A stretch of DNA of 39,404 nucleotides from a bacterium. GTDB taxonomy: Bacteria > SZUA-182 > SZUA-191 > JAJRXT01. The DNA lies in the NCBI GenBank assembly GCA_024276125.1, contig JAJRXT010000134.1:1-39404 (forward strand). The letters run 5' to 3'. A model generated the notes under the pieces. The model was given only the letters and a program-made list of their open reading frames with translations. It was not told the origin of the DNA and did no database searches. Made by a program: the position numbers and the translations under genes. Within the stretch, counting starts at the first letter, position 1; each line of letters starts with the position of its first letter. This document shows positions 4,205-38,120 of this stretch, piece after piece.

Positions 4205-4523
4205 TTAATGTGAGTTCGACATAAGAAGCGTAAAAAATTATTATATCAACTAATTAATGTAAATTTCCTGTAGGGGAGGGGCGCATCCCCCAATGTTGTT
4301 GACTTAAGGAAATTGTCATTCTGAACGAAACGCAGTGGAGTGAAGAATCTGGCCGCGTAGCGAGCAGATTCTTCGGCTTCCAGCCTCAGAATGACAGGCT
4401 AAGAAAAGTCTTTTCTTCTTTGTATCTGCCCTTAAGTTAAACAGCATTGTTTATCGGGCGGGGACAAGCCGCCGCCCCTACAGTTTAATAAAATCAACAA
4501 GTTTTATGTCGATTTCAGGTTAA
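4205..4523. mobile_element. MITE-like element, family 1, with a second element inserted in it
   Basis: The ends are inverted repeats: TTAATGTGAGTTCGACATAA on the left and TTATGTCGATTTCAGGTTAA on the right. Internal sequence matches the copies at 1-129 and 6841-7012 (gtaggggaggggcgc, cgggcggggacaagccgccgcccctacag, then ataaaatcaacaagtttta). At 4291-4449 it is interrupted by a family-2 element that other copies lack. No ORF of note is inside, so it is non-autonomous. It fills the gap between the cytochrome and RNase R genes. Confidence 0.7.
4291..4449. repeat. Family-2 element (CAATGYTGTTGACTTAAG ends) nested inside family-1 element
   Basis: The left end is CAATGTTGTTGACTTAAG and the right end is CTTAAGTTAAACAGCATTG, imperfect inverted copies of each other. 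Between them lies a palindromic unit (4314-4396) that starts TGTCATTCTGA and ends TCAGAATGACA. That unit recurs in the window at 12020, 18981, 19255, 20717, 26629, 30298 and 37458. Confidence 0.7.
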
Positions 4524-11921: not shown

Positions 11922-12019
11922 ATTTATTCCTTAAATATTTTATAGCCCGAAGAATTCGGGAATTAATTTAAATGGCTATTGAGTTCTTTCCGAAACCAAA
12001 GCTGTTTAATTTTATTAGC

Positions 12020-12103
12020 TGTCATTCTGAACGAAACGAAGCGGAGTGAAGAATCTACCCCCGTAGGCTGAGAGATTCTTCGGTCTCCGGCCTCAGAATG
12101 ACA
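12020..12103. repeat. TGTCATTCTGA..TCAGAATGACA palindromic unit in lptB-rpoN gap
   Basis: An inverted-repeat unit of about 84 bases. It has outer arms TGTCATTCTGA / TCAGAATGACA and inner arms GAAGAATCT / AGATTCTTC. The same unit occurs at least seven more times in the window. Confidence 0.7.
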
Positions 12104-12146
12104 GAATGTAATCTTTTTCGGAGTTAACTCTAGTAGCCATTATCAT

Positions 12147-13620: not shown

Positions 13621-14175
13621 TTAATTAATTACGCAAGTTACGCTGTCTGTAATTTTTACTCTTTCCAGTTTCATATCCGCTTTTAAACCATGCCCTTTGA
13701 TTTTTGTCTGCGGATTGGTTATTTTTACCGGTTTATCGGTAAATAGTATTTGTTTTCCGGTTTGCCAGCTTAGAGTCTCGGTTTCCAGTTTCAGGTCATT
13801 TTGGGCGGAAACGACAACCTTTCCTTCTGCGGTTATGTCACGGTTAGACATATTCAATACAGCATTATCTGCTCTAACCCGGAGCATTGGTTGATTTTTT
13901 TCGTAAAAACAAAAAGTTACTTTGTCAAATTCAGCATACTCTTTTTGTTGATAAATAAAACCCGAATCAGCCTGTATTTCAGAGGTTAAATTCATACCCT
14001 TTGTCTCGGTCAAATGAATGCCCTTTATTATTAAATCAGGTTCTTTTTGTTGGCTGGGATTAGTTGCGTTTAAAAAATTATCCCGGCCTGAAGTATCGCT
14101 ATAAATATCGCTTACAGTAGAATAAACTACCGCTAGGGTTATAATAACCAATAGAATTTTTGTTAGTTTATTCAT
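13621..14175 (-). CDS. lptC: LPS export periplasmic protein LptC
   Basis: 184 residues. One N-terminal membrane anchor (KILLVIITLAVVYSTVSDIY) is followed by a beta-rich domain with GIHLTETKGMNLTSEIQADSGFIYQQKEYAEFDKVTFCFYE, as in LptC/YrbK proteins. It would sit on the inner membrane and pass LPS from LptB2FG to LptA. It heads the lptC-lptA-lptB cluster; no kdsC/kdsD is upstream. No strong ribosome site is seen before the ATG. Confidence 0.88.
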   Translation of the reverse strand: MNKLTKILLVIITLAVVYSTVSDIYSDTSGRDNFLNATNPSQQKEPDLIIKGIHLTETKGMNLTSEIQADSGFIYQQKEYAEFDKVTFCFYEKNQPMLRVRADNAVLNMSNRDITAEGKVVVSAQNDLKLETETLSWQTGKQILFTDKPVKITNPQTKIKGHGLKADMKLERVKITDSVTCVIN

Positions 14176-14465: not shown

Positions 14466-14496
14466 TTGACAGAAAACATTTTCATTGGTATATAAT
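14466..14496 (+). promoter_or_regulatory. Sigma-70-type promoter of the small RNA
   Basis: TTGACA at 14466-14471 is a consensus -35. TATATA at 14489-14494 (17-base spacer), overlapping TATAAT at 14491-14496 (19-base spacer), serves as -10. Expected start is near 14501-14503. No ORF starts downstream on this strand. Confidence 0.75.
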
Positions 14497-14501
14497 ATTA
14501 T

Positions 14502-14651
14502 AGGGATAGTTCTCGGGGCTAGGACAAATCCAAATTATTGCCCGTTTGCTTTTTTTAAGCGGGAACATAAGAGCTAGCATCACCGAGAGACTATACTTTA
14601 TAAAAGGCATTCCTGGGTTATAAGGCCTTTTCTCGGGGATGCCTTTTTTTT
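14502..14651 (+). ncRNA. Orphan structured small RNA, about 150 nt, family unknown
   Basis: It has its own consensus promoter upstream and a strong terminator at its end, with no ORF in between. The 5' domain folds well. ATAGTTCTCGG (14506-14516) pairs with CCGAGAGACTAT (14583-14594) with one bulge. Inside, GCTAG (14518-14522) pairs with CTAGC (14574-14578). CCCGTTT (14541-14547) pairs with AAGCGGG (14557-14563). The closed-ended stem with large internal loops could fit a 6S-type RNA or another regulatory RNA, but I recognise no conserved family motif and do not assign one. Its terminator overlaps the 3' end of bioB on the opposite strand. Confidence 0.6.
14602..14651 (+). terminator. Rho-independent terminator of the small RNA, overlapping bioB 3' end
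   Basis: AAAAGGCAT (14602-14610) plus a CC pairs with GG plus ATGCCTTTT (14639-14647), followed by a T-run to 14651. On the opposite strand the hairpin ends in GGAATGCCTTTTAT, so it may also stop bioB transcription. It is a convergent, probably bidirectional terminator. Confidence 0.8.
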
Positions 14652-15625
14652 ATTACCAAGCCCAAATCAGCTATCATTTGTTTATCTTCTTTAACAGACT
14701 TACCTGCAACTGTTAGATAATTACCCAAAAGAGCGCCATTTGCGCCCGCATAATAAATTAAAGCCTGCAAATCCCGCAAATTTACCTCGCGTCCGCCGCA
14801 GACTTTAATATCCTTATCCGGCAGGATAAAACGGAATAGGGCAATAATTTTTAATATTTCTCTGGCCGATAATACGGGTTGATCCTGTAAAGGCGTACCC
14901 TTAACCGGTACTAAAAAATTAAGCGGAACGGAATCTACCGAAAGCCGGCGCAGAGTAAAGGCTAAATCCAGCCGGTATTTCATTTGTTCGCCCAATCCAA
15001 AAATTCCCCCGCAGCATAATTCCAAACCGGCGTTTTTAACCATATAAGCGGTATTTAGGCGTTCTTTATAAGTATGTGTTGAGCATATTTTAGAAAAAAA
15101 ATCCTCTGAAGTTTCCAGGTTATGATGATAGCGCCTAAGTCCTGATTTTTTCAGCCGAGTGAATATATCGGGGTTAAGAGCGCCTAATGATGCGCATCGG
15201 TTAATTCCGGTCCGCCGGCCTATTTTATCTAATGCACTGCAAATGGCGCTTATTTCGGCTTCGCTTTTTATTCCCCGCCCGCTAGTGACTATACCATAAC
15301 GAAAAGCCCCCTGCTTATCGGCCTTTTTTGCTTCCGCAAGTAATTGTTCTTCATTTAATAAGGGGTGTTCTTTAATTGAAGTATTATTATGAGCAGATTG
15401 AGCGCAGAATTTACAGTCTTCTGAACAATGCCCGCTTTTGGCGTTTATAATAGAGCAAAAGTCTATCTGATTTCCTTTAAAATGCTTCCTTATACGGTTG
15501 GCTGCATACATTAGATCATCCAACAAATCGTCTTTTGCATCAGCTAAGCGCAGCGCCTCGTTATAATTAATTAGATAACCGGAAAGCGCCTTTTTACCTA
15601 AACCATTGATGAATTTATCTAACAT
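14618..15625 (-). CDS. bioB: Biotin synthase
   Basis: 335 residues, radical SAM family. C67-x3-C71-x2-C74 in GHCSEDCKFCAQS binds the [4Fe-4S] cluster, the classic BioB motif. The rest is colinear with BioB: SGRG, NRCASLGAL, YHHNLETS, CCGGIFGLGEQ, PLNFLVPVKGTPL and CGGRE with the [2Fe-2S]-ligand arginine. It inserts sulfur into dethiobiotin. Its ATG overlaps the end of the cinA-type gene by seven bases, so translation is coupled. Its last ten codons form one arm of the small-RNA terminator. No other biotin genes are in the window. Confidence 0.95.
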   Translation of the reverse strand: MLDKFINGLGKKALSGYLINYNEALRLADAKDDLLDDLMYAANRIRKHFKGNQIDFCSIINAKSGHCSEDCKFCAQSAHNNTSIKEHPLLNEEQLLAEAKKADKQGAFRYGIVTSGRGIKSEAEISAICSALDKIGRRTGINRCASLGALNPDIFTRLKKSGLRRYHHNLETSEDFFSKICSTHTYKERLNTAYMVKNAGLELCCGGIFGLGEQMKYRLDLAFTLRRLSVDSVPLNFLVPVKGTPLQDQPVLSAREILKIIALFRFILPDKDIKVCGGREVNLRDLQALIYYAGANGALLGNYLTVAGKSVKEDKQMIADLGLVIKKRHPREKAL

Positions 15626-18943: not shown

Positions 18944-18957
18944 TCTAGGGGCGAGGC

Positions 18958-19362
18958 CAATGCTGTTGACTTAAGAGAATTGTCATTCTGAATGAAACGA
19001 AGTGGAGTGAAGAATCTCCCTCCATATGCGAGCAGATTCTTCACGGCACTGCGTTTTGTTCAGAATGACAGCAAGTAGGTTGGGTTGAGGCACGAAACCC
19101 AACATTACCGCTACTGGTCATTCCCGAATGCCTTTAAAAGGGAATCTAATAAGTATAGTCGCATAATTAGCTGTAATATTTTTAGTGGGGTCAGATTCTC
19201 AAATCTGACCCCGAAGTCTCTGTTGTCGGATTTGAGAATCTGACAACACAAGGCTTGTCATTCTTTAGCTTTCAACCGAAGAATCTACTCGCATACGTGG
19301 ACAGATTCTTCATTCCGCTTCGCTTCATTCAGAATGACAGCTACCTTAAGTCAACAGCATTG
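18958..19362. mobile_element. Long family-2 element with nested repeat units
   Basis: The ends CAATGCTGTTGACTTAAG (18958-18975) and CTTAAGTCAACAGCATTG (19345-19362) are perfect inverted repeats of 18 bases. Inside are two TGTCATTCT-type units (18981-19070 and 19255-19339), a REP-like stretch near 19115-19142, and GTCAGATT..AATCTGAC palindromes at about 19185-19245. The block fills the gap between the CMD gene and the methyltransferase gene. No ORF inside. Confidence 0.7.
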
Positions 19363-20458: not shown

Positions 20459-20802
20459 GTTGCCGACCTTTAGGTCGGCTATGGGGCATAGGTGCTCATT
20501 TAAGACTAAAAAAACTATGTTTCGGGGTGTCTCACCCCGAAACCAAAGGCTTGTAAATTGCGATTGTTTTGGGGTGAGACACCCCGAAACATATGAACGC
20601 GCGGTTGCAAAAGTAGAAAATGGGATTTCCTCATTTGTCAATTAATCTTGTTTTTATTAAATCACCCAAGTTGTTACCTATAGGTTTATTTTTGAAATAT
20701 TTGGTTTTACATACCCATCATTCTGAACGAAGCGTAAGCGCAGTGAAGAATCTACTCGCTGTTGCGGGGGGATATTCTTCAGCCTTCGGCTTCAGAATGA
20801 CA
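20459..20802. repeat. Cluster of three palindromic repeat types between methyltransferase and threonine synthase
   Basis: 20461-20479 is a GCCGACCTTTAGGTCGGC palindrome. 20515-20594 is a paired palindrome with outer arms CTATGTTTCGGGGTGTC and its inverse. 20717-20802 is a CATTCTGAACG..TCAGAATGACA unit. No supported gene lies in the 443-base gap. Confidence 0.7.
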
Positions 20803-20865
20803 AAAATGGATAACTTCACCATAGGTAACAACTTGGGTTAAATATGAAAGGTGGTGTGAGAGCCT

Positions 20866-26604: not shown

Positions 26605-26740
26605 CAATGCTGTTGACTTTAAGATGGCTGTCATTTTGAATGAAGCATAAGCGGAATGAAGAATCTACTCGCTGTTGCGGGGGGAGATTCTTCGGCTTAT
26701 TGCCTCAGAATGACAAATAGCAGCCGACCTTTAGGTCGGC
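26605..26740. repeat. Repeat cluster between mnmE and mnmG
   Basis: Family-2 end CAATGCTGTTGACTTTAAG at 26605-26623 without its partner. A TGTCATTTTGA..TCAGAATGACA unit at 26629-26715, then GCCGACCTTTAGGTCGGC at 26722-26740. Confidence 0.65.
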
Positions 26741-31595: not shown

Positions 31596-32795
31596 ATGAA
31601 CGAACATTTAGCTGACTTATTTAGAAAAATAAGCAAAATCATCCTTGTTGTCTTATGTTTATTCTGGATAGGAGAGAGCTTTAATATATATCAATGGGCA
31701 ACAAAACATTCTTATATTCCATCTACTCATTGGATGTTTATATTGTCGATCTCGTTTTTAATGGTATTGTTTTATTTTATTGCTTTTAAGACAAAAAGCC
31801 AAACCTTAATAAAAATATATCTTTCAGCAGGCTCTGTCCTTGTTCTTGTTTTGCTTACAGAGGGTGCAATAAGAATTTTAATGTACCAAGAAAAAGTTGA
31901 ACCATTCTATCGTCCGGCGCATTTAAAAGTAGACATGAGGTACATATTAAATCCTATGTGGAACAATATGAGTACATTAAAACCAAATTACAGGGGAAGA
32001 ACACACGGTCATTCTGTATACATTAATGCTTATGGCTTTAGAAGTGAAGAGTTTACTCTGACAAAAAAGAAGGATGTATTCAGAATAATTGTGTTGGGTG
32101 ATTCTTTAACCTATGGAGAAGGGGTTGCTGATGGGGAGCTATATACATCTGTATTAAAAAATAAGCTGCAAAACAAATATCCTGATAGAAAAATAGAGGT
32201 AGTTAATTTGGGTATAAGCGGATATTCGTCAGTTGATGAATAAAAATTTTTGGAAGTGTTCGTATCAAAAGTTAATTTTGATCTAATTTTAATTGGTTTT
32301 TGCCTTAATGACATTAAAGAAGGGTCTGCTGCACCAGATCGCTGGCGTTTGGCAATACCCCTTCCCCAAAAACTAAAGGCAATCTTTTTGGAGCATACAA
32401 GATTAGCACGTCTTTTACAAGAGCGTTATGACCGATTGCTGATAAACATAGGTATAAGAGATTCATTTACTTCTTCTGTCGAACCCTGTTATAAGAAAAA
32501 TTCCAAAGAATGGAAGAAATTTCTAGCGGCATATAAAAAAATTCTCACGCTGAATACCAAACTAAATTTACCCAAACCTATAGTGGGTTTGCTTAACTAT
32601 CGACAGCAGGTTGAGCAGTCTTTGGCTAAGATGGGTTTTATTACAGTAAATTATTTAGAGCCTTTCAAAAAATATGATAATAAATCACTAATTGTTTCTA
32701 AATGGGAAGGACATCCCAGTAAACTTGCACACGGAATATACGCTCAAGGCTTCTATGATGCTATTGTGGCATCAAAGGTTATACCAATCCGATAA
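31596..32795 (+). pseudogene. Membrane-anchored SGNH/GDSL hydrolase interrupted by an in-frame TAA
   Basis: The N-terminal third holds three membrane segments (about residues 15-30, 46-64, 74-95). The SGNH domain starts with FRIIVLGDSLTYGEG, catalytic Ser170. At codon 216 (32241-32243) a TAA follows GISGYSSVDE. The same frame then continues KFLEVFVSKVNFDLILIGFCLND, the block with the conserved Asn, and ends with a GHPSKLAHGIYAQGF block carrying the likely catalytic His. CAA to TAA would be one change. The whole frame is 400 codons. Family members deacetylate or acylate cell-surface glycans; neighbours fit that. Confidence 0.8.
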
Positions 32796-37449: not shown

Positions 37450-37457
37450 ATGCAGCC

Positions 37458-37581
37458 GTCATTCTGAACGAAGCGGAGCGCAGTGAAGAATCTACACACA
37501 TATGCGAGTGAGAATCTTCGGCCTACGGCCTCAGAATGACAGGCTAATAAAAGTTGTTTTACCATTAAGTCAACAGCATTG
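37458..37581. repeat. TGTCATTCTGA unit and orphan family-2 end
   Basis: 37458-37541 is the palindromic unit (GTCATTCTGAACGAAGCGG .. CCTCAGAATGACA). 37563-37581 is CATTAAGTCAACAGCATTG, a family-2 right end whose left partner is missing. The rest of the gap to 37730 shows no gene. Confidence 0.65.
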
Positions 37582-37730: not shown

Positions 37731-38120
37731 ATGAATAAACAACATTTTGAAATTCTTTTAGAGAAAATAGATAGTAAATTTGACCTGGTATTAGAAGGTT
37801 ATGCTGCTTTAAATAGAAAAATAGATAATGTTCAAAATTCATTGGATGATTATAAGCGACAAAACAAAGAAGAACAAAATTTACTTTTTCAGATGATCCG
37901 TGAAGTAAATCAAAAAGTTGATAAATTAGACCAAAAAGTTGATAAATTAGATAAAAAAGTTGATAAATTAGACCAAAAAGTTGATAAATTAGATAAAAAA
38001 GTTGATAAATTAGATAAAAATAATGTTGCCGCCCATGCCGCTTTTAACAAAAAATTGGATGAGCGCGAAAAAGAAACCGCCGGTTTAAAACAAAGACTTA
38101 CCCGCTTAGAAGCCGCCTGA
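37731..38120 (+). CDS. Small coiled-coil protein with heptad tandem repeat
   Basis: 129 residues from the ATG at 37731 (TAAGGA about ten bases upstream). No signal peptide. The protein is almost entirely charged helix. Five exact or near-exact heptads, [QK]KVDKLD, sit in the middle, with Val and Leu at core positions, flanked by less regular coiled coil and ending LKQRLTRLEAA. It is probably a trimeric or dimeric cytoplasmic coiled coil. I do not recognise a family. A longer open frame upstream (37659) has no ribosome site. Convergent with the ROK kinase gene, five bases apart. Confidence 0.7.
   Translation: MNKQHFEILLEKIDSKFDLVLEGYAALNRKIDNVQNSLDDYKRQNKEEQNLLFQMIREVNQKVDKLDQKVDKLDKKVDKLDQKVDKLDKKVDKLDKNNVAAHAAFNKKLDEREKETAGLKQRLTRLEAA
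37911..38015 (+). repeat. 21-base tandem repeat inside the coiled-coil gene
   Basis: Five units of about 21 bases (CAAAAAGTTGATAAATTAGA plus one base). They differ mainly at CAA/AAA for Gln or Lys. The near identity at DNA level points to recent slippage-type expansion, so length may vary between strains. Confidence 0.85.

Follow-up and report, generated by a model that had tools for sequence, protein, structure and literature searches.

A candidate orphan small RNA gene with its own promoter, folded body and terminator, and one relative in a second genome of the same class

The window, by which we mean the whole analysed stretch of 39,404 nucleotides, carries at 14466-14651 of its plus strand an ordered set of a TTGACA/TATAAT promoter, a closed fold and a T-tailed terminator, which very probably constitutes a real, conserved RNA gene. 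Its existence is well supported, and from the two known copies we infer a mechanism: the reading that we somewhat favour is a narrowly distributed family of stand-alone small RNAs that would act in trans via a conserved core and would probably be protein-bound. The unusual feature is the ordered set itself, in which the promoter is followed by a start site at the base of the closing stem, by the closed stem and by the terminator. The locus has its own promoter and terminator, contains no open reading frame, and has a homolog whose stems covary with its own, a comparison limited to two members. The initial annotation had left the choice between a new regulatory RNA and a diverged 6S RNA; the orphan gene behind the first proposal is upheld, since the homolog keeps the core while its stems change in pairs, and the second proposal is not supported.

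Both hexamers of the promoter recognised in the initial annotation are perfect. The -35 element TTGACA occupies 14466-14471, and the -10 region, TATATAAT, spans 14489-14496, as judged from the sequence and a promoter scan. Within this region, TATAAT at 14491-14496 leaves a spacer of 19 nt to TTGACA, longer than ideal; an alternative -10 element, TATATA at 14489-14494, gives a spacer of 17 nt and is accompanied by an extended -10 TG at 14486-14487. The promoter (14466-14496) is the sole match of at least 11/12 in the whole window, counting both strands and spacers of 16-19 nt, and in sampled DNA of the phylum such promoters number 11 per 287,462 strand-bases, with the promoters of both RNAs counted in. 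Transcription is predicted to start at about 14502-14503, a position that coincides with the base of the closing stem. The candidate RNA is present as a single copy in its own genome and belongs to none of the dispersed inverted-repeat families of the window.

The predicted body is a rod with a three-segment closing stem, an asymmetric internal loop and a small apical hairpin; it extends over 14500-14601, so that the closed structure of about 90 bases described earlier is recovered at ~100 nt. The 5' arm of the closing stem (14500-14522), with its innermost segment GCUAG at 14518-14522, leads into the 5' strand of the conserved core, GACAAAUCCAAAUUAUUG (14523-14540), which is mostly unpaired and is defined by its identity with the homolog. 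The apical hairpin (14541-14563) is followed by the 3' strand of the core, AACAUAAGAG (14564-14573), delimited by the same comparison, and by the 3' arm of the closing stem (14574-14601), composed of CUAGC at 14574-14578 and the segments 14583-14588, 14590-14594 and 14596-14601. Both arms are assigned from the fold and from pairs that covary with the homolog. Inside the core, UUAU at 14535-14538 is able to pair with AUAA at 14567-14570. The T-tailed terminator of the initial annotation is equally evident from sequence and fold z as a strong intrinsic terminator at 14602-14651, comprising a hairpin (14602-14647) and a run of eight T residues (14644-14651).

The fold of 14500-14652 has an energy of -53.3 kcal/mol (z -5.1), with 0 of 200 shuffles as good, while z is about -2.85 for the body by itself and -4.2 for the terminator by itself. 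Taken on its own, such a fold energy is nothing rare in the window, because dispersed inverted repeats fold equally well or better: z values below -4.5 occur in 2.9% of 153-nt windows here, many of them over such repeats. The repeats themselves form dispersed families of imperfect inverted repeats in intergenic spaces, of the TCATTCTGAACGAAACG...AGATTCTTCGG type, the TATGTTTCGGGGTGTCTCACCCCGAAAC type and the GCCGACCTTTAGGTCGGC type (examples at 4285-4414, 11991-12121, 18952-19072, 20705-20820, 26618-26733 and 37454-37559), and account for several of the window's strongest folds. Elsewhere, a 21-nt tandem repeat in coding frame (37882-38041, plus strand) encodes a KVDKLDQ/KVDKLDK heptad array, likely a variable-length coiled coil.

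According to the list of open reading frames and their domains, the divergent neighbour is lptC (13621-14175, minus strand) and the convergent neighbour is bioB (14618-15625, minus strand; radical SAM plus BATS). On that strand, lptC and then an lptA-like gene lie to the left, and bioB and a cinA-like gene to the right; lptC is the first gene of an lptC-lptA-ABC transporter-rpoN run, in which rpoN and the ABC transporter were read from translations. Correcting an earlier note, the stop codon of bioB (14618-14620, minus strand) sits within the terminator hairpin, which overlaps the 3' end of bioB; because of this overlap, the hairpin may serve both directions and may end both transcripts, that of the RNA and that of bioB. 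Downstream on the plus strand there is no convincing gene of at least 80 aa until 17073, in agreement with the earlier statement that no gene follows on this strand. The orthologous neighbourhoods of phylum relatives contain no RNA of this kind beside lptC or bioB, and a TTGACA...TATAAT pair in the locus L036 was rejected as a homologous promoter, lying within coding sequence. Further along the window, an SGNH-hydrolase-like gene read from its translation (31596-32795, plus strand) contains one in-frame TAA at 32241-32243, after which the frame runs on to 32795; either the gene is disrupted or split, or the assembly contains an error.

Among 4227 Rfam families, none matches at its gathering cut-off anywhere in the window, and a search of the candidate RNA with lax filters returned nothing credible. 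This agrees with the lack of SRP, tmRNA, RNase P and riboswitch motifs noted from the sequence. Of the two refuting outcomes named in the initial annotation and covered here, a strong Rfam match and stems without conservation, neither occurred. The 6S model (RF00013) gives no match on the candidate RNA even at E up to 5, nor does the bacterial small SRP RNA model (RF00169) match it. The source genome encodes its own 6S RNA at G000:C148:193-379 (RF00013, 91.9 bits) and its own SRP RNA at C22:11090-11189, and the lack of a model match together with these genuine copies elsewhere rules out 6S or SRP RNA as the identity of the candidate. The genome with the homolog, G003, also has a separate 6S RNA above the Rfam cut-off, and 6S is present in 8 of the 9 phylum genomes. 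Resemblances to the guanidine-I riboswitch (CUAGG...CCGAGAG), to tracrRNA and to the CsrB-type GGA motif were dismissed, their geometry being unfit and no Rfam family matching.

The homolog was found with a covariance model of the body only (R2), built from one sequence; a model covering the entire transcript gave none, and blastn searches with the locus in 145 genomes, phages and plasmids returned short chance matches only. R2 gave a full-length match at G003:C66:12614-12705 (E 0.0027, 29 bits), in a genome of the same class as the source genome and of a different family. That this match is a true relative is shown by agreement in features that the model did not include. The homolog (locus L147) has a promoter, TTGACA-17-TATAGT, and the distance from the end of the -10 element to the core is 23 nt in both cases (14496 to 14519 in the window; 1492 to 1515 in L147 of G003). 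The homolog is directly followed by an intrinsic terminator, which consists of a hairpin (z -6.1) and a T run; neither this feature nor the promoter is contained in R2, and such terminators number 9 per 287,462 strand-bases sampled, those of both RNAs included. For promoters and terminators alike, so good a placement would seldom arise by chance. No Rfam family reaches its gathering score in the homolog region.

The kept core reads GYUAG-GACAAwUCCAA(m)AUUAUU on the 5' side and ArYAUAArAG(AA)-CUArCA on the 3' side, with GACAAwUCCAA(m)AUUAUU opposite ArYAUAArAG in the internal loop. It matches the homolog at 23/26 positions, unrelated sequence never exceeding 20/26 in a core scan over 2.1 million positions, and core plus flanks are identical in 24/28 aligned columns. 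The closing stems are unlike in sequence yet pair in both genomes (AGGGAUAGU/ACUAUACUUU in the window, AAGGUG/CACCUU in G003), with 6 pairs changed on both sides and 0 broken; about 40-50% of positions are paired in a control with the partner slid. The same covariation is reached by 13 of 500 shuffles, and its weight is limited by its derivation from two sequences only, in an alignment (A3) fitted to the structure of the single sequence of R2. Folded alone, the homolog forms its outer stems and apical stem unaided, and its unconstrained minimum-energy fold favours GUU/AAC over GUUAG/CUAAC by 2.8 kcal/mol; its apical hairpin is CCC/GGG-based and differs in sequence from that of the window. Stems that change freely around a kept loop typically indicate an RNA that binds something through this loop. 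It is scarcely credible that the whole is a coincidence of a stray promoter-like site by a bidirectional bioB terminator, a fold arisen by chance and a fortuitous look-alike in G003: such an account would accommodate the fold energy, not rare in itself, and the overlap of the terminator with bioB, but G003 jointly matches the core, the covarying stem, the promoter at an identical distance and the terminator.

A two-member covariance model (R3) was then searched in 386 genomes with strict filters, and the genuine members are two only, in the source genome and in G003. Under these filters the seven remaining genomes of the phylum, G001 of the same family among them, gave no member, nor did 377 further genomes. 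Because G001 is without a match at the sensitivity used, either the presence of the RNA is patchy or its relatives have diverged. Weaker model matches at G002:C328 and G003:C153 were rejected, as both fall in intergenic DNA that resembles repeats and has no promoter. The R3 match at G293:C47 is false: it is a tandem repeat, situated at the end of a contig behind the gene for a phosphate-type ABC ATPase. A further match, in G054, is a weak one in which many pairs are broken. A scan of viral contigs for core or stem words found none.

The gene context differs between the two genomes: lptC and bioB flank the RNA in the window, while in G003 it is flanked by an IMP dehydrogenase-like gene (guaB) and a short transposase-like open reading frame or fragment, both read from translations. 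Since the neighbours differ, the RNA would act in trans, and a role as a cis-regulator or as an antisense RNA to bioB is unlikely. Just upstream of the homolog, an inverted repeat of the TCATTGCGAGCGAAGCGAAGCAATC type (L147:1335-1442) gives a PYLIS_1 match with an E of 0.0055, which is sub-threshold (27 of 70 bits) and presumably due to chance. A cis-acting riboswitch or attenuator of the terminator type, whose readthrough would here run antisense into bioB, is improbable. It would suit the aptamer-like closed fold with a terminator immediately after it, and the closing stem's 3' arm and that of the terminator could pair with each other (repeat TTATA..TTCTCGGGG; -19.1 kcal/mol); however, the closing stem (-21.9) and the terminator (-24.5) outdo this pairing, the terminator is still formed with the 5' arm blocked, no convincing same-strand gene precedes 17073, and the gene downstream of the homolog is a different one. 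An antiterminator switch was accordingly rejected as energetically not competitive.

6S RNA (SsrS, RF00013) resembles the candidate in being a stand-alone gene and a rod with a closing stem, an unpaired middle and an apical stem. A second, miniature 6S-like RNA, binding RNA polymerase as a mimic of the open promoter, would explain the central bubble between two helical arms and the resemblance of the 3' bubble strand (CAUAAG/UAUAAA) to a -10 element, and short 6S-1 truncations do work in vitro: RNAs of 78-82 nt keep the basic function, among them B. subtilis 6S-1 cut to 78 nt, with only the bubble and short arms (PMC8876501). This reading, a less favoured variant of the protein-binding proposal, is nevertheless highly improbable, given that there is no 6S model score, that a canonical 6S co-exists in the source genome and in G003, that the body of only about 100 nt is half of the 6S length near 200 nt, and that the core is strictly conserved in sequence, unlike 6S RNAs, whose sequence identity is limited (PMC8876501).

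Rather unlikely, too, is a trans-acting base-pairing RNA in which the unpaired 18-nt core strand would be a seed for mRNA, presented and protected by the stems. The strand's length, its conservation and its mostly unpaired state speak for this, and it has a 16/18 complement around codons 14-20 in a nuoB-like gene (G000:C12:3271-3288; L151:1501-1518) and another just upstream of an iron-sulfur protein gene; yet complementary matches number 8 against 11 for a reversed control pattern, which is chance level, and the duplex with the nuoB-like gene (-19.7 kcal/mol) is not above the best background in 1284 windows. The nuoB-like coding start is the best-placed target lead for the core strand, though not above background. 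Further counts against a seed are that Hfq (PF17209) was found in 0 of 9 phylum genomes, which are 88-97% complete, with control genomes positive, that ProQ was not found in the source genome, and that both strands of the loop are conserved, which is more than a seed needs.

Under the preferred reading of a stand-alone RNA acting in trans, the gene would be transcribed from a housekeeping-type promoter, starting an RNA of ~150 nt at the foot of the closing stem and ending it at its own intrinsic terminator. Action would proceed via the core, most likely as a protein site, through which a protein would be recruited, titrated or blocked; that the core is a protein site, and not a base-pairing seed or a ligand pocket, we judge to be evenly balanced. 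A more speculative possibility is that the core loop serves specifically to dock either a small molecule or a central protein, be it RNA polymerase or some other global regulator; the RNA would then be a new trans-acting class, in a phylum that yielded no Hfq and no known sRNA chaperone. If the RNA is trans-acting, it works in genomes without a detected Hfq, and its partner would reveal how these bacteria use small RNAs. The RNA family had not been catalogued before and comes from an uncultured phylum that has been little sampled; a covariance model for the family is ready.

With terminator-type riboswitches, the candidate shares a closed fold with a conserved loop and an intrinsic terminator directly behind it, but it differs from them in being without a downstream gene, a competitive antiterminator or a context shared with the homolog. 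Stand-alone candidate structured RNAs are known from comparative genomics, including Acido-1, Dictyoglomi-1 and Gut-1 (Weinberg et al. 2010, PMC2864571). The present RNA differs from this type in having only two members and, having no Rfam match, is none of such families held by Rfam; it resembles the type in being free-standing, of unknown function and confined to a narrow lineage or to environmental sequences. With its two members it forms a new family of structured RNAs that stand alone, of a kind already known (PMC2864571).
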